Of a DNA stretch of 44,842 nucleotides, positions 6,854 to 36,652 are shown in pieces (position 1 is the first letter of the stretch; each line of letters starts with the position of its first letter). The stretch is from the IMG/VR virus record IMGVR_UViG_3300024259_000062, positions 1-44,842 of that record. The stretch is one strand, 5' to 3'. Position numbers and translations under genes: made by a program. Under the pieces are notes generated by a model. The model was not told the origin of the DNA and made no database searches. It saw only the letters and a list, made by a program, of their open reading frames with translations. This DNA is from a virus.

Positions 6854-7549
6854 GTGGCAAGACGAAAGCCTGTGGAAAAGCTATCAGTTCGCTGGTCTGA
6901 TTTACAGGGCGTAGTAGATGGAGATGTTCGGTCCTTCAGGAAAGTCCTTGCCTATATATCGTATGATGAACAGGGCAGGAACGTCTTGGAAGGATACCTC
7001 AGGAAAACAGAGCGACAGTTGAACCGCTTACCGGATTCAGAATACGGGGATCTTTTATCTGAGGCTGAGAAACAAATCTGGAGATGCGCAGGTCGGTTTC
7101 TAGCCAGAAAAAGATCAGGACAAAAGGGCAAGATAGCGTTCAGGATATATTACTATCAAAGGCTAAAGCAATGTTTCACTGATCGAGTCAGAGCTACTCA
7201 GAAAACTTCTGATGTCCATAATACCAGCGCTGCCTCCATAGACTCTATGATGGAAGACGCTGGTTTTGTCGTTCCTACTAATGATATCGGTGATATACCT
7301 GTTAAGATTGACATCCAAAGTAGGGTAGTTGAGCTTGGAAGTCATGAGAGGAAAATAGTCAGGAAGTTGGAGGAAGGCTGGACGACAACTCAGATAAAGC
7401 GCGATTTGATTGATCGTCTGGTAAGCAAGAAGCCTGGTCGTAACTACGATGACGTGGCGAAGTTGGTTAGGGCTAGGGTTGATCAATCTTTGGCGGTTAT
7501 CCGTTCTGCGTTAGAAGATGTGTGGGCGGTGCGTAATGAAAATCATTGA
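6854..7549 (+). CDS. Putative divergent sigma-70-like factor
   Basis: 231 aa from GTG 6854 with GAGGGGAGG upstream. The middle (KIAFRIYYYQRLKQCFTDRVRA) resembles the aromatic, basic region 2 of sigma factors. HERKIVRKLEEGWTTTQIKRDL resembles the region 4 helix-turn-helix of ECF/sigma-70 proteins. No single diagnostic motif is perfect, so this is a fold-level guess; another HTH regulator is possible. If correct, it could read the repeated non-canonical promoters of this phage. It has its own promoter at 6739. Confidence 0.4.
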   Translation: MARRKPVEKLSVRWSDLQGVVDGDVRSFRKVLAYISYDEQGRNVLEGYLRKTERQLNRLPDSEYGDLLSEAEKQIWRCAGRFLARKRSGQKGKIAFRIYYYQRLKQCFTDRVRATQKTSDVHNTSAASIDSMMEDAGFVVPTNDIGDIPVKIDIQSRVVELGSHERKIVRKLEEGWTTTQIKRDLIDRLVSKKPGRNYDDVAKLVRARVDQSLAVIRSALEDVWAVRNENH

Positions 7550-8168
7550 TTTCACTACTAACTGTGAAGATCGGCCGGATAGGGTGACTATCGAGACTTT
7601 TGTTCCGAGTGTTGCTCTCACTGGTGTGCCTATCAAAGAAGAAACGATCATTCGATTGATTCGTCAATACTATGCCGAAATGTTTGCTGGATCAAATGTG
7701 ATAATGAAACGGCCTCTAGTATTCGACTACGCATTTGATTCTTGGAAGGGCTTTCGTTTCTACTGGGAGCTCAGAAAAGATAAGACTTGGGCGGAGGTTA
7801 GAGATCGCAAGATACATACTGATTTAGCTAGGCGTGTATTTTTAGCCGATCACGCTGTAGTCAGTGTATACCTTAGCGAACGAAAAACCGAGGGCGGAAG
7901 GTGTGTTAGTTGCGTATTTAACAAGAACATCCCAGAGGGGGACAAAGCCTATGAAGGAGTAAGGCCAGAAGACGGTAGCATCGGCAATGCTTGCCCGGTC
8001 AGGCCGAATGTTGTCGAGATCATCAAGGAGTGCCGGGAGTATCGACTAGATATTGTAGAATTCCTGTCGTTTGAGACGACGACTTCAAACCCCATAGCAG
8101 GAGTATTAGAAAATGGCGAAGGCCGATCTGGTAAAGAAGGCGAAGAAGTTGGGAATCAAGAAGGCTGA
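7536..8168 (+). CDS. Hypothetical protein with Cys cluster
   Basis: 210 aa from ATG 7536; a longer in-frame start at 7518 would sit deeper in the previous gene. The overlap with the previous gene is 14 bp. Four Cys in the C-terminal half (CVSC, then CPV and C-R-E-Y) could bind zinc. The last 56 bp overlap the following acidic-protein gene in another frame. No family recognised. Confidence 0.65.
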   Translation: MKIIDFTTNCEDRPDRVTIETFVPSVALTGVPIKEETIIRLIRQYYAEMFAGSNVIMKRPLVFDYAFDSWKGFRFYWELRKDKTWAEVRDRKIHTDLARRVFLADHAVVSVYLSERKTEGGRCVSCVFNKNIPEGDKAYEGVRPEDGSIGNACPVRPNVVEIIKECREYRLDIVEFLSFETTTSNPIAGVLENGEGRSGKEGEEVGNQEG

Positions 8169-9117
8169 GGACATGACGGTCAAGGCCCTGAAGGACGCCA
8201 TCGCTGCCGCCGAGGCTGGCGACGATGAAGATCTGGAAGATGAGCTGGATGAGGAACTGGACGATCTGGACGATGAAGATGACGACGAGGAAGATGACGA
8301 GGATGACGACGAGTCCGATGACGAGGATGACGACGAGTCCGATGACGACGATGACGATGATGACGATGACGACGATGACGATGATGACGACGATGACGAC
8401 GATGACGATGACGACGATGATGACGACGAGGAAGATGACGACGAGGAAGATGACGACGAGGAAGATGACGAGGATGACGACGAGTCCGATGATGACGAGG
8501 ATGACGACGAGTCCGATGACGAGGATGACGACGAGGATGACGACGAGGAAGAGGCTGAGGAGAAGCCCAAGGCCAAATCCAAGGGAAAGGGCAAGGCCAA
8601 GCCCGCAGCTGAGGAGAAGCCCAAGGGCAAGGGGCGTGGACGCTCGGACATCAGCCAATATGTCAAGCGCGCAGAAGGTCCGGTTGGTCCCGAGAAGTCC
8701 CTTCCCTGTTGCTCCCCGACGGCACCCTGGCCGACCTCCAAGCCGCGGAACATCGCATTCGCAGCACTCCAGGCCGCCGGCAAGAAGGGTCTGACGAAGG
8801 AAGACTGGATTGAGGCGGTCACCGCCGCGTTCAAGAAGGAGAAGCTCACCCAGTCGGCAACGTCCAGCGTCACGACGGTCCTCAAGGCCGAGCGCAGGAT
8901 CACGATCGAAACGGTGGAGAAGAAGGCCGGCAACCGCTACAAGGTGGTTTGGCCGGTCAAGTCCTCGCCTGAGTTCGCGGAGTATGATGCCGAGCAGGCA
9001 AAGCTGGCGAAGAAGGGAAAGGGCAAAGCCAAGGCCGGAACGAAGGCCAAGGCAGCAAAGGAAGAGGCCCCGGCCGCAGAAAAGACCGCCAAGAAGAAGA
9101 AAAAGGCCAAGAAGTAG
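8113..9117 (+). CDS. Acidic-tract winged-helix-like protein, paralogue 1
   Basis: 334 aa in three parts. Residues 1-36 are a Lys-rich helical segment (LVKKAKKLGIKKAEDMTVKALKDAI) like a SAP/HeH DNA-binding motif. Then comes a roughly 115-residue Asp/Glu tract. Residues about 210-285 are a compact domain (NIAFAALQAAGKKGLTKEDWIEA...ITIETVEKKAGNRYKVV) shared with the proteins at 14,773 and 28,657 and winged-helix-like in pattern; a Lys/Ala-rich tail follows. Codon use is far more GC-rich (GCC, AAG, GAC) than in neighbours, suggesting high expression or recent acquisition. Start ATG 8113 has GCAGGAG upstream. Function unknown; a chromatin-like or DNA-mimic role is conceivable. Confidence 0.8.
   Translation: MAKADLVKKAKKLGIKKAEDMTVKALKDAIAAAEAGDDEDLEDELDEELDDLDDEDDDEEDDEDDDESDDEDDDESDDDDDDDDDDDDDDDDDDDDDDDDDDDDDEEDDDEEDDDEEDDEDDDESDDDEDDDESDDEDDDEDDDEEEAEEKPKAKSKGKGKAKPAAEEKPKGKGRGRSDISQYVKRAEGPVGPEKSLPCCSPTAPWPTSKPRNIAFAALQAAGKKGLTKEDWIEAVTAAFKKEKLTQSATSSVTTVLKAERRITIETVEKKAGNRYKVVWPVKSSPEFAEYDAEQAKLAKKGKGKAKAGTKAKAAKEEAPAAEKTAKKKKKAKK
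8221..8555 (+). repeat. Asp/Glu codon repeat tract
   Basis: About 335 bp of almost only GAT, GAC, GAA and GAG codons, with periodic GAGTCC (Glu-Ser) interruptions, coding for the acidic middle of the gene at 8113. Expansion or contraction by slippage is likely, so the exact length may vary between isolates or assemblies. Confidence 0.9.
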
Positions 9118-10596: not shown

Positions 10597-10853
10597 GTGA
10601 GAGCCCTGCTCTGAACATCAAGAGGGCAGTTGAAGCAATGACTAACGCTTTAATATTCCAAGCATTAGTCCAACTCAAGAAGGGGTATGAGAAGACAGGC
10701 ATCCAAGAGGAAGGCTTGGTTAGGATAGTCTACGATAGGTTTGCCGAGAATGCTGATATTAGTTTCGGACAGGCCTGTTCAATTTTCTACTATGAAGGCT
10801 CAAGAAGGTTCATGGAACTTCAGAGGAAATCGTCCAAGAAAGGCGGAAAGTGA
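10593..10853 (+). CDS. Hypothetical protein
   Basis: 86 aa. A TTG at 10593 overlapping the previous stop (TTGA), with GGGGAG 3-8 nt upstream, is the preferred start; the frame also opens at TTG 10563. Helical composition with a Lys-rich tail. No family recognised. It ends one base before the ThyX start. Confidence 0.6.
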   Translation: MSESPALNIKRAVEAMTNALIFQALVQLKKGYEKTGIQEEGLVRIVYDRFAENADISFGQACSIFYYEGSRRFMELQRKSSKKGGK

Positions 10854-10854
10854 T

Positions 10855-11730
10855 ATGGCGGGTGAGAGTATAGGACTTCAGATGTCGTCTTCAGAACAAG
10901 CGAATGCCCCGATTACCAATACTCCGATAGTAAAGTTGGTCCACCCACCTAAGCCGGAAGATTGCCTCCGCCAAATAGCGACGATGTGGCTCGCAGCTCA
11001 CCACGTCGATCCGCTTTGGATTGTAGATGGCGGTCGAGCGTTCCCAGGATCATTTGATCCGGATCACGAGCAGATGGATGGTTTGACTCGCGGCGAGATC
11101 GAGAAGATGATCTGGGAAGAGGTTATCCCGATCCCGGCTTGGCAGACGGTGCTGGAGTGTGTCCGGTTCACGTTTGTGATCTATAACCTGAGTCGTCCGG
11201 CCCAGCAGCAGTTGACTCGACAGCGGCTCGGGGTAGGGTTCAACAACAATTCCCTCCGGGTTATCCAGCTGGAGACTTTCGCTAGGGATGGCAGGTATCG
11301 TATGCCGCCAAGATTCAAAGGGACTCCCGGAGAAGCAGTGTATCGCCACTCAATGGAGATGATACAGGGTGACTATAATACGTTGATCAGCTCAGGAGTC
11401 AAGCAGGAAGATGCCCGCGGCATTCTTCCTCAGAATATCCACTCCCCGACGGTGACGATGTTTGCCGACCTGAGGGCCTTGCTTAGCTTTATTCCCAAGA
11501 GACTTTGTTATGAGGCCCAGGATGAGATGAATGAAATGGCTGTGTCATTAAAGCAAGAAGTTGATCACTGGGACCATTGGTTCGGGAATCTTTTGAGCTT
11601 CCCTTGTTCTCGTAACAAGGAATGTGTGATCGGACCCGGTGCTGCTGAGAGGTGTCCACTTCCATATGAGTGGAAGGGCGGAGGGAACAAGGGGATTGTG
11701 ATTACCTCCCATAAGGAGGAAGTTGAGTAA
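10855..11730 (+). CDS. thyX: Divergent ThyX-like flavin-dependent thymidylate synthase
   Basis: 291 aa. ThyX makes dTMP from dUMP using FAD and methylene-tetrahydrofolate. The stretch from VLECVRFTFVIYNLSRPAQQ to FARDGRYRMPPRF aligns by eye with ThyX (fold lead-in, then the signature). The signature is altered: R122-Q-R...NNNS133-L-R135 stands where ThyX has RHRxxSxNxxSxR. The His is Gln, and the Ser/Arg pair is one residue further along. Both arginines and the late Ser-x-Arg remain. It may still be a thymidylate synthase or may act on a modified substrate. ATG 10855 follows AGGCGGAAAG. Confidence 0.72.
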   Translation: MAGESIGLQMSSSEQANAPITNTPIVKLVHPPKPEDCLRQIATMWLAAHHVDPLWIVDGGRAFPGSFDPDHEQMDGLTRGEIEKMIWEEVIPIPAWQTVLECVRFTFVIYNLSRPAQQQLTRQRLGVGFNNNSLRVIQLETFARDGRYRMPPRFKGTPGEAVYRHSMEMIQGDYNTLISSGVKQEDARGILPQNIHSPTVTMFADLRALLSFIPKRLCYEAQDEMNEMAVSLKQEVDHWDHWFGNLLSFPCSRNKECVIGPGAAERCPLPYEWKGGGNKGIVITSHKEEVE

Positions 11731-29052: not shown

Positions 29053-29226
29053 GCCTGGTCCGGAATCAGTCAGAGGCGTGGTGGTGGCTGGTGTTTGATC
29101 CGTTCTCAGAAAGGTCGAAAACCAGTCAGAGGCGTGGTGGTGCGTGCTGTTTGATACTAGACCAACTAGAGCGTTGTTGGTGGTTGCTGTACTGGTTGAC
29201 ACAGCAGATAAAGCCAGAGAAAAGAC
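29053..29226 (+). repeat. TG-rich repeated spacer
   Basis: Two copies of AGTCAGAGGCGTGGTGGTG (29,066 and 29,121) followed by GCTGGTGTTTGAT-like and GCTGTTTGATACT-like tails. Same vocabulary (CAGTCAG, GTGGTG, TGTTTG) as the spacers at 28,300 and 29,815. No gene seen. Confidence 0.6.
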
Positions 29227-29255
29227 TAGGAAACTCAGTGTAAAAGCCTTACCTT
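29227..29255 (+). promoter_or_regulatory. Repeated phage promoter, copy 8 (TAGGAA variant)
   Basis: TAGGAA 29227-29232, 17 nt, TACCTT 29250-29255, then TAAGTAGAGAGGGA. Context GACTAGGAAACTCAGTG as in copy 6. Serves three tiny genes ending at 29,748. Confidence 0.65.
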
Positions 29256-29301
29256 TAAGTAGAGAGGGAAAGAACTCAAAACCCGAAGTAAGGAGGACGT
29301 G

Positions 29302-29469
29302 ATGGATAAGCCTAGCGGCCCTAAGATAATGTGGTTTGTATGGCGGAAGTTCGCGCCTAAGACGAACGAGAACGTTGTGCTGAAGTTCGTCGCCCGACCG
29401 GGGCGTTGGCCTTTGAGCGGTAACTACGACCGGAAGTATATTGTGAACGCGATCTCGACGGTGAGGTAG
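29302..29469 (+). CDS. Very small basic protein
   Basis: 55 aa, ATG 5 nt after AAGGAGG(ACG). Trp/Arg/Lys-rich (IMWFVWRKFAPKTNENVV, ARPGRWPLSGNYDRKY). First gene after promoter copy 8. No family recognised. Confidence 0.55.
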   Translation: MDKPSGPKIMWFVWRKFAPKTNENVVLKFVARPGRWPLSGNYDRKYIVNAISTVR

Positions 29470-29473
29470 TGTG

Positions 29474-29608
29474 ATGAGACGAGTCCTTAAGGATGTTGTG
29501 GACTACGACCCAGAAATTCGCCGGTGTGTACCGGTAAGCGATGTGGTCGCCTTGTGGAGAAGAATCCTAAGGTGGTGGGAACGAACCTTTGCGGGGAGGA
29601 CGATATGA
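29474..29608 (+). CDS. Very small hypothetical protein
   Basis: 44 aa, GAGGTAGTGTG upstream of ATG 29474, with ATGA coupling to the next gene. Val/Arg-rich (VSDVVALWRRILRWWERTF). No family recognised. Confidence 0.5.
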   Translation: MRRVLKDVVDYDPEIRRCVPVSDVVALWRRILRWWERTFAGRTI

Positions 29609-29748
29609 TGGACTTACTTAATATGAGTAGTCTTGACTGGGCTATCGTGTTCTTCTTCGTATGCTTTATTGTCGGGATGGTTATCGTAGTCATCGGAGAT
29701 CTGAGGGCAATGAGGATGACAGCTAAGCGTCACAACTGGCGCGGGTAG
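29605..29748 (+). CDS. Single-pass membrane micropeptide
   Basis: 47 aa from ATG 29605, 5 nt after GGGGAGG. One long hydrophobic helix (LDWAIVFFFVCFIVGMVIVV) and a basic C-terminus, so probably N-out/C-in. Last gene before the non-coding region that leads to the TG/CA-free island. Confidence 0.6.
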   Translation: MMDLLNMSSLDWAIVFFFVCFIVGMVIVVIGDLRAMRMTAKRHNWRG

Positions 29749-29771
29749 TCCTTATCTCAGTCAACTAATAG

Positions 29772-29799
29772 ACCTGGCCAACCAGTCACTTGGCCAGGT
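29772..29799 (+). other. Perfect hairpin
   Basis: ACCTGGCCAA / TTGGCCAGGT, 10-bp perfect stem with an 8-nt loop, 23 bp after the last small gene. No T run, so a transcript-end stabiliser or protein-binding site is as likely as a terminator. Confidence 0.6.
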
Positions 29800-29963
29800 A
29801 AGGTAATTTCAGTCAGAGCGCAGGTGATGCTGTTTGGTGACCCCTAATCTAATTGTTGGTGTTTGCTGCCTAGAGAGAATGCCTTGCCCTATATCGTATG
29901 TTTGTTTGTGTGGTTCCAGTCAGTCAATTGTCTTTAGGCGCAGCACCAACCTCGATCTCCCTA

Positions 29964-30417
29964 AAGAGAAAAGGATCTTTTTCTCTTAAAGCTATAACCC
30001 TAGCGTTAGAGAAAAATCTTCCGAGAAAGAATTTCTCTTACCTTAAGGTTATAGGGAAGGCGTTTCCCTATAAGGAAGGAAGTTCCTATCTTAAGGCGAA
30101 ACTAGACGAAACTAATATCGACGAAAACGTCGAATAAATTTCGACGAAAACGTCGAGAGCTAAGTCTCTATTTCGCTTAAGGTTAAAGCGATCCTAAACT
30201 CGATTCGACGAAAACGTCGCTAGACTTTCGACTATATCGTCGAATATCCTTAAGGTATATCGCTTCGTTATAACGCTATCGGTAGGGACTATAACGCTAC
30301 CGTTAAGGTAAAGTAAGTCCCTATTTCGCTTAAGGTTAGGAAGGAAAAGGTAGAGAAAAACGTCTTTTTTATCGTTTCGTTATAACGCTACCGATATACC
30401 TTAAGGCTATAACGAAA
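29964..30417 (+). repeat. Chain of hairpins inside the TG/CA-free island
   Basis: Successive inverted repeats: AAGAGAAAA/TTTTCTCTT (29,964-29,987); TTATAGGGAA/TTCCCTATAA (30,049-30,073); three copies of TCGACG-AAAA-CGTCG (30,118, 30,141, 30,205) and a variant TCGAC/GTCGA (30,228-30,243); TAGGGACT/AGTCCCTA (30,283-30,323); TTTCGTTATA/TATAACGAAA (30,375-30,417). CTTAAGGT-like and TATAACGCTACCG-like words recur between them. No open frame of interest. It looks like structured RNA or an array of protein-binding sites. Confidence 0.75.
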
Positions 30418-30747
30418 TAGCTCGAAAGAAAATCGAAACTTTTTTAACTTTAGGTTAAATAGAGACTTAGGGCGGTTTTCTCGAAAGGCTAAATCCTAGC
30501 GGCCCGGTAATCGCTATACCTTATCGCGTAGTCGAGAACGAAACGAAACGCTAACGAAAGGGGAAACGAAACGAGTAAAAGGAATCTAGGGAATAGCGGA
30601 AACCGAAAGAGTCGGATAAACCGCTAGACTAGATCGGAAACGAGCGAAAGCGAAAGGTTTCCTAAAAGGTCCGATACCTACCGAAAAGGTATTACTTCGA
30701 TTTTCGGAATCTACCGTTTACCGTAGTATAACGTAAGGGGAAACGCT

Positions 30748-31404
30748 ATTAATACCGATACCGTAGTAAATCCGGAAACGGATTCGATAGATACCGATAC
30801 CGACCTTACGGCCGACCTTACGGCCGATCTCGATACGGAAGCCGTAGACGATACGGAAGCCGTAGACGATACGGAAGCCGTAGACGATACGGAAGCCGTA
30901 GACGATACGACGGCCGACGTTAAGCCGACGGTAGAACGATACGACGGCGAGATTAAATACGCGTCGGACTTTTCGCTATCGGCGAAAGTCGCCGCCGCCT
31001 CTCGTCCGGGGGCGGTAAAACGCGTCCGGATAGGCCTACTCGATTCCGGCGGATTTACTTCGCCGGATAGGGCGGAATCGTTCCGACTCGCTTTCGCGCT
31101 TTCGGTTTCCGACGCCTTCGCGAAAAGCGAAACGGCGAAGGCGAAATTCCCGAAAGTTCTCGCCGTTAGAGAGCGACTCGCCGCCGCCGGTATCGCCGTC
31201 GGAAAGGGCTATACGCGTTCCGAGCTTTCCGCCGCCGCCGTCGCGCTTAACTACGGTCGGAAGTATTCCGCTTTCGTCGCCTTCCGACCGTCGGGAACGC
31301 GATACGCCGTAGTCGAGTCGAACGATAGGCTTAAGCTATTCGTCGTCGCCGAAAACGGGAAGGCTTATCCCGCGATACCGAAAGCGGAAAAGGTCGAGAA
31401 GTAG
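30748..31404 (+). CDS. TG/CA-free gene with ATT start, unknown function
   Basis: 218 codons, open from 30,727. No conventional start can exist; ATT 30,748 lies 7 nt after AAGGGG (30,735-30,740), a normal Shine-Dalgarno distance, and AUU is a known rare start (E. coli infC). The N-terminus is acidic, with DLTA repeats and four DTEAVD repeats; the rest is a basic alpha/beta-like domain (VKRVRIGLLDSGGF, FPKVLAVRERLAAAGIAVGKG, YSAFVAFRPSGTRYAVVE). It contains no Cys, Trp, His, Gln or internal Met. Asp, Asn and Tyr codons end in T before A and in C before G at every such junction. A perfect terminator follows. Acidic tract plus compact domain recalls the family at 8113, but I see no clear sequence match. 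Not recognised. Confidence 0.7.
   Translation: MNTDTVVNPETDSIDTDTDLTADLTADLDTEAVDDTEAVDDTEAVDDTEAVDDTTADVKPTVERYDGEIKYASDFSLSAKVAAASRPGAVKRVRIGLLDSGGFTSPDRAESFRLAFALSVSDAFAKSETAKAKFPKVLAVRERLAAAGIAVGKGYTRSELSAAAVALNYGRKYSAFVAFRPSGTRYAVVESNDRLKLFVVAENGKAYPAIPKAEKVEK
30832..30903 (+). repeat. Four perfect 18-bp tandem repeats
   Basis: GATACGGAAGCCGTAGAC repeated at 30,832, 30,850, 30,868 and 30,886, coding DTEAVD each time. A shorter duplication GACCTTACGGCC x2 lies at 30,802-30,825. Identical copies indicate recent expansion, yet they still contain no TG/CA. Confidence 0.95.
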
Positions 31405-31412
31405 ATAAAACT

Positions 31413-31442
31413 AGAGCCCCTCGAAAGAGGGGCTCTTTTTTT
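31413..31442 (+). terminator. Intrinsic terminator of the TG/CA-free gene
   Basis: Perfect 10-bp stem AGAGCCCCTC / GAGGGGCTCT with a GAAA tetraloop and seven T, nine bases after the stop codon. A near-ideal terminator, which supports that the ATT gene is transcribed. Confidence 0.93.
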
Positions 31443-31497
31443 ACCCTAACGCTAAAGGTATAGGGAAAGGGATTCCTCTAACGCTACCGTTAGGGTA
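31442..31497 (+). other. Long-range hairpin TACCCTAACG / CGTTAGGGTA
   Basis: Perfect 10-bp arms at 31,442-31,451 and 31,488-31,497 enclose GGTATAGGGAAAGGGATTCC. Still inside the TG/CA-free island, beyond the terminator. Confidence 0.6.
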
Positions 31498-31513
31498 GGG
31501 AGGGGTAGGGGGT

Positions 31514-31534
31514 AAAAGACTAAAAAGTCTTTTT
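31514..31534 (+). terminator. Second, AT-rich terminator at the island edge
   Basis: AAAAGACT / AGTCTTTT 8-bp stem with an AAAA loop and continuing T-rich DNA. It lies about 10 bases before the island ends; on the - strand it would also stop transcripts leaving the reverse operon. Confidence 0.6.
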
Positions 31535-31544
31535 CTCTTTTCGC

Positions 31545-31772: not shown

Positions 31773-32048
31773 TTAACAACCGGGATGGTTGTTCAATTGA
31801 TCTTTGAGGGATTGCGGAAGGAAATACTCACCATCCGGGCGAACGGTGAGAACAGGCAACCGAGGAAAGCCATGCTGATACTGCCGAATTGCTTCGTTGC
31901 CTGCGTGGTGAGATTTCTCGTTTATGTGGATGGCTCGATCTTGCGGTAGGCCGTAAAGATGACAGAGGGTATATGAGCTGATCCAATGTAAATCTCCGTC
32001 ATTGCGGGATCTGACTTGGCCTCCTACTACGATGGCGAGCTTGGTCAT
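31773..32048 (-). CDS. Hypothetical protein, last gene of reverse operon
   Basis: 91 aa. Starts with KLAIVVGGQVRSR, like the first strand of a Rossmann-type domain, then HINEKSHHAGNEAIRQY with several His. An AACAACC/GGTTGTT hairpin spans its stop. ATGA coupling to the upstream gene. No family recognised. Confidence 0.58.
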   Translation of the reverse strand: MTKLAIVVGGQVRSRNDGDLHWISSYTLCHLYGLPQDRAIHINEKSHHAGNEAIRQYQHGFPRLPVLTVRPDGEYFLPQSLKDQLNNHPGC

Positions 32049-32257
32049 TTGAGCCTCTCTAGTTCACTGAGGATATTATTGGTTGATTGACGTATGGCGG
32101 CGGTATGTATCTCGGTTGATTGAAGCTCCATAAAGGTTTTGTCTGTAAACTCTATCAAGGCGCTTGAATCATTACACGTGATCTTCTTGATGGTACAACC
32201 TTCGAGTTGCCCTACTAATATCGGACAGATGTAAATGACGTAACGTCTTGGAGTCAT
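32045..32257 (-). CDS. Hypothetical protein
   Basis: 70 aa, ATGA overlap at both ends. Beta-like N-terminus (RRYVIYICPILVGQLEGC) and helical C-terminus (IRQSTNNILSELERLK). No family recognised. Confidence 0.56.
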   Translation of the reverse strand: MTPRRYVIYICPILVGQLEGCTIKKITCNDSSALIEFTDKTFMELQSTEIHTAAIRQSTNNILSELERLK

Positions 32258-32487
32258 TTGATGTCCCTATCCAATACGAAGTTAGCGAAGTCGAGATGGG
32301 CCCACTCGTCGGTAGGCTCCATAGGGATTGGAGGTGCCTCGTGGTTTGGTGGATCCTCTCTCCATAGACGAACGACCCAATAGGGGGAATGCGTTCCGTA
32401 AAGTGGGGTAGCAGAAAACAAGAGTGTCTTTCGACGGACTAGATATAGCTTATGAGGAGGCGGTTGCTGTTCGGATATTGGGGTCAT
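32254..32487 (-). CDS. Hypothetical protein
   Basis: 77 aa from the ATG at 32,487 that overlaps the upstream stop; a longer in-frame start at 32,514 lies inside the acetyltransferase gene. Pro/Trp-rich (SPYWVVRLWREDPPNHEAPP). No family recognised. Confidence 0.56.
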   Translation of the reverse strand: MTPISEQQPPPHKLYLVRRKTLLFSATPLYGTHSPYWVVRLWREDPPNHEAPPIPMEPTDEWAHLDFANFVLDRDIK

Positions 32488-32867
32488 TTGAGTTTCCTTT
32501 TGCGAAACATCCATGAGTGCTTTAGTTCTTTGAATCCATAACTGACTCCGAACTTCTTGCCCCCTGTGTGGGACAATTGGTCTGTTACTAGATGATGATC
32601 CGGATATGCGTGACGTAGAGTATCGAGGATAGCAGTAGCAATGCCTTTCCTTTTGTAGCGCGGGAACACAACCAAGTAGAGGATGTTTATCTTGGTATTG
32701 TTATCTTGAAAATTATAATAGCATAAACCTACTGGAACTGGCCCTGTGTTAACAAGATAGGCCTCAAGAGAGTATGTGCCTGGGATAGTTCCTTGGCACC
32801 AATAAACGTTGAGAGCCTTATTATCTTTGGTCTTCTGCTCGTAGATGATAGGCGCTGTATGGGTCAC
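32484..32867 (-). CDS. GNAT-family N-acetyltransferase
   Basis: 127 aa. The acetyl-CoA binding loop is clear: LYLVVFPRYKRKGIATAIL matches the (Q/R)xxGx(G/A) motif A on its strand, followed by a helix and a terminal YGFKELKHSWMF block like motif B. The length suits a single GNAT domain. Substrate unknown; phage acetyltransferases can modify host proteins or antibiotics. ATGA coupling to both neighbours. Confidence 0.75.
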   Translation of the reverse strand: MTHTAPIIYEQKTKDNKALNVYWCQGTIPGTYSLEAYLVNTGPVPVGLCYYNFQDNNTKINILYLVVFPRYKRKGIATAILDTLRHAYPDHHLVTDQLSHTGGKKFGVSYGFKELKHSWMFRKRKLK

Positions 32868-33064
32868 TTGATTTCCTCAAAGAGATCGAGTTGGAGGACT
32901 TGCTTAGGGAGAGGACATCTGGGGTGAGTGGCCCCTACGCACCGCATGTTGCTAATAACTGGCCCGTTGAACTTTTTACAGCACCGCCATTTGATTTTGG
33001 TTCGCCAAATCTTAGGACGGTAGTAGTATAGCTCAGAGCAGTTATAGCCGTTGAGGAAGGTCAT
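32864..33064 (-). CDS. Cys-rich small protein
   Basis: 66 aa, basic, with WRCCKKF, MRCVGATHPRCPLP and an early Cys that could form a zinc site. ATGA coupling. No family recognised. Confidence 0.55.
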   Translation of the reverse strand: MTFLNGYNCSELYYYRPKIWRTKIKWRCCKKFNGPVISNMRCVGATHPRCPLPKQVLQLDLFEEIK

Positions 33065-33309
33065 TCTGTCCTCTCTAGGATGCCGAACTGGATATGGAAG
33101 TCGCTACGACTATGAACAATTTGTGAGACGCTAGTATTGAGAGCAACTCCGCACATCGCAGCGAATCTTGGCCCCAGCTGGGTGTCGGTATACTCGTTGT
33201 TTAGCTCGACTCTGCTATCCATGACGACCGCGTTTGCTTGAAGGCCAACGCCATCATCGCGCTTGATGGTGAGGACTCCATCTACGAAGTGAACCTCTGT
33301 TATGTTCAT
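33061..33309 (-). CDS. Hypothetical protein
   Basis: 82 aa. VHFVDGVLTIKRDDG at the start and a polar remainder. ATGA overlaps both sides. No family recognised. Confidence 0.55.
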   Translation of the reverse strand: MNITEVHFVDGVLTIKRDDGVGLQANAVVMDSRVELNNEYTDTQLGPRFAAMCGVALNTSVSQIVHSRSDFHIQFGILERTE

Positions 33310-33539
33310 GATAGTTGTATCCTGTCTGGTTTAGACTTCGGGTTGATATCTACTTGTAGAGCTTCGAACATCTTAAAGGTTAGCGGGTATATCTCGATAA
33401 GTGACGAGTCGTTGAGGTCGGGCTGACAGGAGTCCCACACACCCTGCGACGCTAGGGTTATAGTAACGGGAGGATGGCCATACTTCTCGTTGAACTCGTA
33501 GATGAGGTTCATTACGTCGGCGAAGTATGATTGGCTCAC
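33306..33539 (-). CDS. Hypothetical protein
   Basis: 77 aa from GTG 33,539 (GTGA overlap with the 52-aa gene upstream). Aromatic helical start (QSYFADVMNLIYEFNEKYG). No family recognised. Confidence 0.55.
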   Translation of the reverse strand: MSQSYFADVMNLIYEFNEKYGHPPVTITLASQGVWDSCQPDLNDSSLIEIYPLTFKMFEALQVDINPKSKPDRIQLS

Positions 33540-33694
33540 ATCGCCTCCAGTTTCTTACACTGGTTTGGATATCTGGTGTACATCGTTTGCGCGAACTTGG
33601 CTTCTTCATCTGACGCTGGCTCCCCGGCTTTGGAACGGGCGATGAGTTTGGTAAAGCGGGACTTGAGATTGATCGGCATCTTTTGCTCTTTCAC
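33536..33694 (-). CDS. Very small basic protein
   Basis: 52 aa from GTG 33,694, 9 nt after AAAGGAG. Lys/Arg-rich helix (PINLKSRFTKLIARSKAGEP) and CKKLEAM end. Fills the gap between two ATGA-coupled blocks. No family recognised. Confidence 0.55.
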   Translation of the reverse strand: MKEQKMPINLKSRFTKLIARSKAGEPASDEEAKFAQTMYTRYPNQCKKLEAM

Positions 33695-33713
33695 TTTGGT
33701 AGCTCCTTTAGGT

Positions 33714-33986
33714 TCATATGTCGTAGTCTCCAGACATTAAGCCAATGCCCAAATCGAGTCCTTTGCTCTCAAGGGCACTGGCGATAGCTCGTGGGATGTC
33801 CTTCTTGTAATCGCTGAGTTCGTCGTGCTTGTCCGTTTCAAGGTATTCGATTGGGACGCATATCCTGACGTCAACGAAGAATACGTTGTCGCCACCGTAG
33901 CGGGACCACGGACCCCATTGCCCTCTTTCTACTGCCTTCCCATTTTGGAAGGTTATGGCTTTGACGTCACTCCACGGTTTGCTCAC
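33714..33986 (-). CDS. Hypothetical protein
   Basis: 90 aa. WGPWSRYGGDNVFFVDVRICVPIEYLE suggests a beta-rich fold. ATGA overlap with the upstream gene. No family recognised. Confidence 0.56.
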   Translation of the reverse strand: MSKPWSDVKAITFQNGKAVERGQWGPWSRYGGDNVFFVDVRICVPIEYLETDKHDELSDYKKDIPRAIASALESKGLDLGIGLMSGDYDI

Positions 33987-34228
33987 CGTCGCCCCCTGGG
34001 TTTGCAGATGATCTCACTCCAACCGCAGTCGGTCATATGGAGGGCCTTGTAACTTTCAATCTTTTCAAGCCATTCACAGAGCAAGTAGCCTTCTCGTCGA
34101 GCAATCTGACCCTTCTCATCAAAGAGTGGATTATTCAAAGCAGATGTCCATGCTTCTTGCCTAGTCCTACCGATGCCAACTACTCTGCCCTTTGGACTCT
34201 TGACTACCCAAAACGTAATTGCTGTCAC
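33983..34228 (-). CDS. Hypothetical protein
   Basis: 81 aa. ITFWVVKSPKGRVVGIGRTRQEAWTSA resembles a small beta-beta-alpha unit seen in proteins that process sequence-tagged ends, but no call is made. ATGA coupling. Confidence 0.56.
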   Translation of the reverse strand: MTAITFWVVKSPKGRVVGIGRTRQEAWTSALNNPLFDEKGQIARREGYLLCEWLEKIESYKALHMTDCGWSEIICKPRGRR

Positions 34229-34413
34229 GGGACGCTGTCTCCTAAATCGGTGTTAAGGGTTTTGAGCCATCTCAACTGGCCCGGACTTAGCGAGTCTGGA
34301 TGTCTTTTGGATATTGAACAGAGGAATTTATAAGCCTTGTAATAGTAGTCAGTCTCGTCTTTGATAAGAACGCGCTTCCAAGCAGCATCCGCGAGAGTGT
34401 CTGGGTGGATCAT
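34225..34413 (-). CDS. Hypothetical helical protein
   Basis: 62 aa from ATG 34,413 (ATGA with the upstream stop); the frame is open further upstream but there it is inside another gene. Tyr/Lys-rich helices (KDETDYYYKAYKFLCSISK). No family recognised. Confidence 0.54.
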   Translation of the reverse strand: MIHPDTLADAAWKRVLIKDETDYYYKAYKFLCSISKRHPDSLSPGQLRWLKTLNTDLGDSVP

Positions 34414-34628
34414 TTGATCACCTGGACGTCGAAGATTGGTCGTAGGTTGATTATCGGTCCGAGTGTTCTGAGATGAGGAGGAAGCATATTCCATATGATC
34501 TCTCTGTTCTTTGGTTCGTTGTAGTTCTCTGTGACATCAGCAGGGAGGTCACATTTGAATTTAACAGCATACTCTACTAGCTGGTGATTATAGAGTGCTG
34601 AAACGAGAAAGCTGATTTCTGGGCTCAT
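34410..34628 (-). CDS. Hypothetical protein
   Basis: 72 aa from ATG 34,628 (ATGA). ISFLVSALYNHQLVEYAVKFKC at the start. No family recognised. Confidence 0.54.
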   Translation of the reverse strand: MSPEISFLVSALYNHQLVEYAVKFKCDLPADVTENYNEPKNREIIWNMLPPHLRTLGPIINLRPIFDVQVIK

Positions 34629-34888
34629 CCTTCCTCCAGACATTGGCGGTGGTGTTCTTGGAATTCTATTGACCGTATGAGCTTGGCACACCCTTCGTGC
34701 CTATCAGTTCCTGTCTCTGACATATCCATTGGCCTGTTCTCGCACGCTACTGCTGCTACTTCGAGTGTTTTCAATATTAAGCCTTCAATATACTCGAATA
34801 GAGCATCGTAGCATAGCTCGTTGGCAGGATCTTCTGCTATGCGTATTCTTGATATGATTTCACGACATTGTTCTGGTGTTAACTTCAT
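34625..34888 (-). CDS. Hypothetical helical protein
   Basis: 87 aa, all helical (EQCREIISRIRIAED, LFEYIEGLILKTLEVAAVAC). ATGA coupling at both ends. No family recognised. Confidence 0.56.
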   Translation of the reverse strand: MKLTPEQCREIISRIRIAEDPANELCYDALFEYIEGLILKTLEVAAVACENRPMDMSETGTDRHEGCAKLIRSIEFQEHHRQCLEEG

Positions 34889-35115
34889 GTGAATTTCCTT
34901 TTGTTAAGTAGTGACTCGTGGACTAAGACTTGCCTGTTCTTATATTGTTTGACCCAGTAACGGTGAGTCGGGACAGGCTCTGTAGTAAGCTCTATCGGTG
35001 CTTCCGTTAGACATATGATAGGGCCGAGATCAGGCCTGTGTACAACGATAGTATAGTCAGTATCTACCGATAGTAGTCTCCCATCGCAAGGACCGCCTAC
35101 GCATTGGCAAATCAT
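34885..35115 (-). CDS. Hypothetical protein
   Basis: 76 aa from the internal ATG at 35,115 (ATGA with the upstream stop). ICQCVGGPCDGRLLSVD is a recurrent start of small phage proteins of unknown role that have a Cys-x-Gly-Gly-Pro-x-Asp-Gly motif. The rest is beta-rich. Confidence 0.58.
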   Translation of the reverse strand: MICQCVGGPCDGRLLSVDTDYTIVVHRPDLGPIICLTEAPIELTTEPVPTHRYWVKQYKNRQVLVHESLLNKRKFT

Positions 35116-35456
35116 CGCATTGTCCAAGTATAGTTGCCATCGACGTTAATCTGGAACTTGGCAGGACCGTGCGCAATCATTCCAAGAGGGAAGCCGCCAA
35201 GAAGTGGCCCCGGCTTGAGTTTGCTATCATATGAGAACGACACCTCTTTAGCGTCGGCAACGCCCAAGATGAACTTGGTTCCGTCGCTCATTTGGATAGT
35301 AATTCTTGTCGGCTTGATTAATCTCTCAGCTGGTGGCTTCCTCAATTCCTCCTGCTCCCTGAAATGTCTGAGTATTTTGCGTTGGGCTGCGTCAGCAGTT
35401 CTACTGTTAGAATGCCTGAGTTCATGTAGTGCGTCGTTTAATTGGATGATTGTCAT
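35112..35456 (-). CDS. Hypothetical protein
   Basis: 114 aa, TAGGAGAC before ATG 35,456. Basic helical N-terminal half (LHELRHSNSRTADAAQRKILRHFREQ) and beta-like C-terminal half (RITIQMSDGTKFILGVAD). No family recognised. Confidence 0.58.
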   Translation of the reverse strand: MTIIQLNDALHELRHSNSRTADAAQRKILRHFREQEELRKPPAERLIKPTRITIQMSDGTKFILGVADAKEVSFSYDSKLKPGPLLGGFPLGMIAHGPAKFQINVDGNYTWTMR

Positions 35457-35463
35457 GCGTCTC

Positions 35464-35556
35464 CTACATATATAGTTGGGTTGTGTAGCTTTGATTAATT
35501 GACCAGATCCATGCTAGTAGGACTAGCCAGAAGAGAAGCCATTCAAATTGTGTCAT
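35464..35556 (-). CDS. Single-pass membrane micropeptide
   Basis: 30 aa, ATG 5 nt after GGAGG. A hydrophobic Trp-rich helix (FEWLLFWLVLLAWIW) then a short polar end. Below the size usually annotated, but the ribosome binding site and packing are good. Confidence 0.5.
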   Translation of the reverse strand: MTQFEWLLFWLVLLAWIWSINQSYTTQLYM

Positions 35557-35557
35557 C

Positions 35558-35635
35558 TTATCCTCCAGCCAGAGCGGCTACGGCGAAAGTAATAAGGTAT
35601 AGTAGCATCAATCCTTTGCCCTGCTGTTCTGTCAT
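35558..35635 (-). CDS. Single-pass membrane micropeptide
   Basis: 25 aa, TGATG overlap with the upstream stop: QQGKGLMLLYLITFAVAALAGG. Together with the next gene it forms a pair of tiny membrane peptides, and its end codes for that gene's GGAGG. Confidence 0.45.
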   Translation of the reverse strand: MTEQQGKGLMLLYLITFAVAALAGG

Positions 35636-35997
35636 CACAGCATCACCTCATCTTCATCAGGTTGCCTATAGAATGGAATACGCTTTTCTTTCCGGATCTT
35701 GATGGCCTGATGGCCTGCTGCTATCACTATAAGTGCTGAGTCGTAATCAGCACGAGTTATCTGGAGGTGTCCTTCGCAATCTTCAATTTCATATTTGTCA
35801 CCATTATCCAGAGTTAAGTGGAACGACTTTCGATTCTTCGCAAAACGAGCTTCGCTGCGTCTGGTTGGCGGCGGTTGTCTATTCCTTTCACGACGTCCTT
35901 TATTGTTTTCAAGGCGTCCTTTATTGTTTTCAAGGCGCCTTTTCTTGGCCTCTCTGTCCTCTTTGATCTTGACGTCACGATATTCCCAGATCTCCAT
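35635..35997 (-). CDS. Basic protein with internal RLENNKG repeat, first gene of reverse operon
   Basis: 120 aa; ATG follows AAAGGTAAGG. Strongly charged N-terminal half with KRRLENNKG repeated, matching a 20-bp direct repeat in the DNA near 35,900-35,940. The C-terminal half (SFHLTLDNGDKYEIEDCEGHLQITR) looks like a small beta domain. No family recognised. Confidence 0.58.
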   Translation of the reverse strand: MEIWEYRDVKIKEDREAKKRRLENNKGRLENNKGRRERNRQPPPTRRSEARFAKNRKSFHLTLDNGDKYEIEDCEGHLQITRADYDSALIVIAAGHQAIKIRKEKRIPFYRQPDEDEVML

Positions 35998-36044
35998 AAA
36001 CCTTACCTTTCTGAAATAACAGGATTTTCTTTATAGTCTAGTAG

Positions 36045-36073
36045 ATTATACAGCCTGATAGGGGCTGAAAGAA
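36045..36073 (-). promoter_or_regulatory. Probable promoter of the reverse operon
   Basis: On the - strand: TTCTTT, 17 nt, TATAAT (36,050-36,045) in GGCTGTATAATCTA, the same GGCTGTATAAT as at 6785-6795. It lies about 50 nt before the ATG at 35,997. The -35 is poor. Confidence 0.5.
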
Positions 36074-36241
36074 AAGGGCCAAGCTGTAAAAGCCTTGACC
36101 CTTCCTGGAGGTCCGTCAACCGCGCCCGTTTTTCGCGGTAAAGTAGTATACAAAGTTGTAGGGCGTGTAACGGTGCTAGTCAAAAACCATGGTATTCTAA
36201 TAGGTAACCCATTCACTTACCCCTGATAAGGAGTGGCTCAA
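36074..36241. promoter_or_regulatory. Divergent intergenic region
   Basis: AAGGGcCAAG / CTTGaCCCTT imperfect hairpin (36,085-36,114) between the diverging units, a GTAGTATACAAAG box near 36,145, and ATGGTATTCTAAT near 36,190, which may drive the late genes. Ends in TAAGGAG before ATG 36,242. No gene seen. Confidence 0.4.
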
Positions 36242-36652
36242 ATGTTAAATCAAAGACAGATTAAAGACCGCAAGCAAGAACTGGTTCGCATGAACAAGGA
36301 CTATCTTATTGAAGAGCTTATCACTGCAGAGGATCAGCTTGCCCGCAAGGACAACTTGATAGCAGATGATACTGATCGGCTTGTAGCACTCAGAGGCAAG
36401 ATACGGCATGACCAGAGAATCGTAGTGTCTCAAAAGAAGCGTAAAGGCCAGATGGATAAGATAGCATGGAAACGCTGGAAGGAGTTTACCAAAATACAGA
36501 TCTGGATAAACATCCTTACAGCAATACCGAATATATTTGGCGCTGCAGCTACTGGGGAGTTTACTTGGTTTATGGTAGGACAGGTAGTGATGAATGCTAT
36601 CTTTGGTCCTATGGTATTTTATCTCCAGAAGAAGGCTGAACACTACGGGTAG
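36242..36652 (+). CDS. Coiled-coil membrane protein
   Basis: 136 aa from ATG 36242, 8 nt after AAGGAG; GTG 36233 is too close. N-terminal charged coiled coil, then two hydrophobic segments (INILTAIPNIFGAAATG and FMVGQVVMNAIFGPMVFYL). First gene of the late block; might be a holin-like or packaging-site membrane protein. No family recognised. Confidence 0.55.
   Translation: MLNQRQIKDRKQELVRMNKDYLIEELITAEDQLARKDNLIADDTDRLVALRGKIRHDQRIVVSQKKRKGQMDKIAWKRWKEFTKIQIWINILTAIPNIFGAAATGEFTWFMVGQVVMNAIFGPMVFYLQKKAEHYG

Follow-up and report, generated by a model that had tools for sequence, protein, structure and literature searches.

A phage gene with a probable AUU start in a unit purged of the dinucleotides TG and CA

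Why would a phage gene begin with ATT? The question is raised by the gene at positions 30748-31404 of IMG/VR record IMGVR_UViG_3300024259_000062, of which positions 1-44,842 were analysed; this whole stretch of 44,842 nt is called the window here. The window is a partial genome of a double-stranded DNA tailed phage and encodes terminase, portal, head protease, SbcCD-like proteins and a DnaG-like primase. Our work supports the idea that the gene would be translated from AUU 30748 because selection at the level of double-stranded DNA removes TG and CA from the unit in which it lies, and we give this reading a probability of about 0.6. The unit contains the following features:

29948-31544, both strands: island without TG and CA
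29963-29987, plus strand: left end repeat, weakly inverted relative to 31516-31540
29963-30737, plus strand: non-coding leader, structured and containing repeats of CTTAAGG as well as TAACGNTANCGNTA palindromes
30735-30740, plus strand: Shine-Dalgarno sequence AAGGGG with a 7-nt spacer to ATT, -8.3 kcal/mol
30748-31404, plus strand: gene of 218 codons with an ATT start and a homologue in the relatives' sequences L002-L004
30800-30920, plus strand: in-frame tandem repeats with units of 12 and 18 nt, encoding an acidic N-terminal tract
31413-31442, scored on both strands: terminator hairpin after the gene
31516-31540, minus strand: right end repeat

The island extends over 1597 nt and lacks both TG and CA, so that the ban holds for either strand. 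The runner-up among the gaps without TG and CA in the window is only 42 nt long, and the naive probability of such an absence is about 1e-86. All other dinucleotides, and all trinucleotides that do not contain TG or CA, are present; CG reaches 2.05 and TA 1.35 of the expectation. The edges are sharp: there are 19 and 14 occurrences of TG or CA within the first 100 nt outside either side. For one in three of the possible single substitutions in the island, the outcome would be a new TG or CA. CTG, TGG, TGC, TGT and TGA are missing, as is every other NTG and TGN. The ban covers the leader, the coding sequence and about 100 nt past the terminator (to 31544). As neither strand is exempt and the terminator does not end it, the ban is one on DNA rather than on RNA. 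On the left side, the island is adjoined by CAGTCAG repeats that are dense in CA (29066-29930 in the window, 7061-7129 in L002).

The gene is supported as real, and ATT as its best start, by several properties of the sequence. The coordinates given in the initial annotation could all be confirmed: a TAG (30724-30726) closes the frame upstream, the frame is open from 30727 up to the final TAG (31402-31404), and AAGGGG precedes ATT 30748-30750 at a distance of 7 nt. The calculated pairing with the anti-Shine-Dalgarno sequence (-8.3 kcal/mol) compares with +1.7 to -11.0 kcal/mol for a set of 14 ordinary genes of the window and with -3.7 kcal/mol for ATA 30787, the second-best near-cognate codon in frame. 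Upstream of the conserved part, no other near-start codon in frame has a strong Shine-Dalgarno sequence; ATT 30748 thus combines such a sequence at the proper distance with the lack of a better start in frame. AUU is in general a weak start codon, and in bacteria it initiates the genes infC and pcnB, where discrimination by IF3 is expected. We infer initiation at AUU 30748 and, due to this codon, a lower expression of the gene; as proposed in the initial annotation, it may also be sensitive to IF3. The product of 217 residues contains no methionine, tryptophan, cysteine, histidine or glutamine. Given the composition of the phage, the chance of this is about 2e-11, and among random synonymous versions of the protein with the codon usage of the phage, the chance of a frame free of TG and CA is about 1e-45.

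The nature of the protein was addressed by homology and structure searches. There was no homologue outside the clade in IMG/VR (beyond the three contigs introduced below), in the GTDB genomes or in INPHARED, and no credible match in Pfam, PHROGs or, by sequence, the PDB. The lone PDB match, a WD-40 protein, was rejected as it is limited to 30 residues and no single stretch passes. A structure model of a homologue had a mean pLDDT of 43.

A natural control is provided by relatives that obey the same ban. A search with the terminase resulted in the identification of three contigs with 82% identical terminases: IMGVR_UViG_3300025131_000013 (93 kb, hereafter G001), 3300037634_004075 and 3300002518_000020. 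In all three of them, the corresponding place holds an island free of TG and CA, and that of G001 is the sole one in its 93 kb. The ban is thus not an artefact of a single assembly, as it recurs in three further metagenomic contigs with a different sequence. No significant match between the island DNA of the window and that of the relatives was detected (best E 0.05); since both obey the ban, it has outlived a near-complete turnover of the sequence. The island genes of the window and the relatives are 46% identical overall and 50% identical over the last 150 aligned codons, with values of 0.60, 0.68 and 0.37 for the three codon positions. Over these codons, pN is 0.345 as compared to a pS of 0.751, indicating that purifying selection acts on the gene and that the frame is conserved as a protein. 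Distant relatives, with terminases or capsid proteins that are 36-48% identical, had no island, and the trait was seen in one clade only.

It is the start codon at which the relatives depart from the ban. Their gene begins with AGGAG-AAAAAA-ATG. Apart from this start codon itself, neither TG nor CA occurs over 1083 nt in L002 (7199-8281) and over 1062 nt in L004 (1879-2940). The initial annotation had stated that the usual start codons are banned and cannot exist in the island. This is too strong, as the relatives retain a TG precisely at the start codon and L003 has one further TG at position 7228; the ban is better described as selection with a cost. The tolerance of the start-codon TG shows that the ban is selective and not absolute. 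Another TG is found within the left inverted repeat of the relatives, at the edge of the island (L002 7197). The initial annotation had proposed to look for homologues starting with ATG in relatives outside an island; those identified are located within an island, too. They do not start far from the proposed position, since 25 residues separate their ATG from the first conserved block. In the window, this distance is 70 residues, reflecting an expanded in-frame acidic repeat. A change of the start to ATT by the purging of TG, as proposed, is well supported by the exception that the relatives make for ATG, which is the strongest evidence for it. At one site, the three near-identical relatives carry ATG (L003:7228), AAG (L002:7227) and ATA (L004:1907), as if a TG had been lost in two ways.

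The comparison with G001 also provides a view of the genome. The window joins both ends of the G001 contig, which thus looks like a complete circle. The contig ends fall within the repeat that corresponds to a low-complexity repetitive gene of the window (8113-9117), and the circle was probably cut within this repeat. Small minus-strand genes lie between the island and the terminase, in a block at 31773-36643 of the window and as two genes in G001. Moreover, G001 encodes its own DNA polymerase III alpha subunit, a DnaB-like helicase and a protein of the uracil-DNA-glycosylase superfamily (L026:2601-3179, the most likely member of its batch).

The rest of the unit has features of its own. The word TTTCGCTTAAGG and overlapping words are common to the non-coding parts of both islands, and CGCTTAAGG occurs two and three times in the two islands as compared to 0.04 and 0.03 expected from dinucleotide shuffles. 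The same kind of shuffles gave an expectation of 0.00 for the TAACGNTANCGNTA palindromes, of which the window has four. The islands of the relatives end in a 38-nt inverted repeat that is 87% complementary (0 of 1000 shuffles were as good) and that includes an exact 19-mer in inverted pairs. The end repeats of the window are weak: three of 1000 shuffles and nine internal pairs were as good. Folding of the window leader is far better than that of shuffles (z -6.1 for RNA, z -8.8 for DNA of the minus strand), and it is weaker for L002 (z -2.5). In the relatives as in the window, the unit is located upstream of the terminase block. A transposon or another mobile element would be expected to carry a transposase or recombinase gene or to be inserted at varied sites; the only gene of the island has no Pfam or PHROG match, and its place is identical in the window and G001. 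No sigma-70 promoter was found on the plus strand of the island, and a perfect -35 TTGACA is impossible there as it would require TG and CA. Rfam searches gave only sub-threshold matches, and no tRNA was detected. These observations suggest that the unit is functional; candidate roles are those of an origin, of a binding region and of a unit for early expression.

Could the ban have a different reason? A cutter, nicker or primer that acts at TG, such as a nuclease or the DnaG-like primase of the phage, might have to spare the unit if the latter had to remain intact, e. g. as an origin, as a region for packaging or as an element with inverted repeats at its borders. The presence of a phage-encoded primase, the repeated CGCTTAAGG motif and the palindromes, the 38-nt inverted repeats at both ends of the relatives' islands and the position directly upstream of the terminase block all fit such an activity. 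However, known DnaG-type primases read three bases whereas here every NTG and every TGN is gone, and the role of the unit as an origin or packaging region is itself putative. We thus regard this explanation as unlikely. Quite improbable is also the idea that ATT is incidental, either because the true start lies elsewhere, at ATA 30787, an ACG or ATT 30952, or because translation is too weak to matter. The general weakness of AUU and the fact that the 70 N-terminal residues of the window protein do not align with the relatives would agree with this idea. Yet none of the alternative in-frame candidates exceeds the -3.7 kcal/mol mentioned above, and purifying selection acts on the frame. Moreover, the repeats at 30800-30920 have unit lengths divisible by three, so that the frame is kept, as fits translation from upstream.

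The ban might also have arisen without functional selection, by context-dependent mutation similar to RIP with conversion of C to T at CpA. The elevated frequency of TA is what such a process would leave behind, but CG is increased even more. In addition, the three close relatives differ from each other by substitutions of mixed types, transversions among them; turning ATG into ATT would require a transversion as well, and neither the sharp edges nor the one retained functional TG are in agreement with this mechanism. A CpA-deaminase-like erasure was rejected based on the types of substitutions and the excess of CG, and context-dependent mutation is very unlikely to be the reason. Finally, the loss of TG eliminates all usual start codons, and the ban might thus serve to avoid stray starts of translation or cleavage by an RNase at UG. 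A ban at the RNA level was rejected based on the equal absence of CA from the plus strand and the extension beyond the terminator; moreover, TGG, TGC, TGT and CTG are missing as well, and the relatives retain precisely a start codon. A reason at the level of RNA or translation is thus highly improbable. What is left is selection on double-stranded DNA against an activity that reads TG.

If selection on double-stranded DNA is the reason, it would strip TG and CA from a unit of 1.1-1.6 kb that consists of the structured leader, one gene, the terminator and the flanks. In the relatives, this unit would have kept the TG of the start ATG, where the loss costs most. We infer that the ancestor had an ATG; ATT is best explained by the loss of the last tolerated TG in the lineage of the window, leaving an AUU behind a good Shine-Dalgarno sequence.

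Our leading guess for the TG reader, which we put forward tentatively, is a base modification directed to TG. This putative modification would cover the remaining DNA and leave the unit unmodified on both strands, so that the unit could be transcribed or bound while the rest is masked. Such activities are not without precedent: phages carry T modifications at TG and TC that depend on a 5hmdU kinase (PMC6449724; PMC7653180), and cytosine carboxymethylation at GC has been described in phages as well (PMC12783734). A 5hmU DNA kinase (PF18723) was not matched in the window or in G001-G003, of which G001 appears to be complete. The clade has candidate genes that may act on thymidylate and sugars. 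The window encodes a ThyX-like protein (10741-11730), but phages that lack such a modification often have ThyX, too. A UDP-galactopyranose-mutase-like protein is encoded in the clade, and five GT-B-like glycosyltransferases and a DegT aminotransferase are present in G001 (L022:2035-2943, L023:11262-19061); the glycosyltransferases may instead serve the glycosylation of the virion. One of them sits between the genes for the UDP-galactopyranose-mutase-like and the ThyX-like proteins. In the window and in G001, six-base palindromes with TG or CA are the least avoided class, a weak signal for modification. In contrast, TGCA and CATG are avoided throughout the genomes of the clade, and this does not fit protection at TG. 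Outside the island of the window and of G001, the avoidance of these two words is strong, and GTAC is avoided tenfold (11 versus 113 expected in the window, 27 versus 263 in G001), which suggests an effect of host restriction systems.

The comparison with known systems reveals both likenesses and differences. As in infC and pcnB, the AUU is preceded by a Shine-Dalgarno sequence; however, it regulates a single gene there, whereas here NTG is gone from a whole unit and the relatives use ATG. The phages M6, ViI and phiW-14 have an activity that favours T in TG or TC, similar to the one proposed here, and a thymidylate-synthase-like gene, of which the ThyX-like gene would be a putative counterpart. 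However, the parts searched (M6 as a whole, 150 of the 157 kb of Vi01 and the first 50 kb of phiW-14) contain no island free of TG, and the clade has no detected 5hmU DNA kinase. The avoidance of restriction sites by phages is another case in which selection removes a short DNA word, but these words usually have four to six bases and are avoided genome-wide and incompletely, whereas the word purged here has two bases, is completely missing from a single bounded unit and is normal elsewhere. No earlier description of TG-free islands or of phage regions depleted of TpG and CpA was found in the literature searched, which covered neither subscription papers nor preprints.

The island would thus show how, in nature, selection against a dinucleotide in DNA can prevail over the choice of the start codon and of five amino acids; the control is given by the relatives, in two of which the start codon holds the only TG. 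It points to an activity that reads TG in double-stranded DNA. It is possible, though by no means assured, that the clade hides one unit from such an activity, namely a new dinucleotide-directed base modification, and pays for this with five amino acids and, in the phage studied here, with the start codon. For the identification of the TG reader by nanopore sequencing or mass spectrometry, the island would serve as a built-in negative control.
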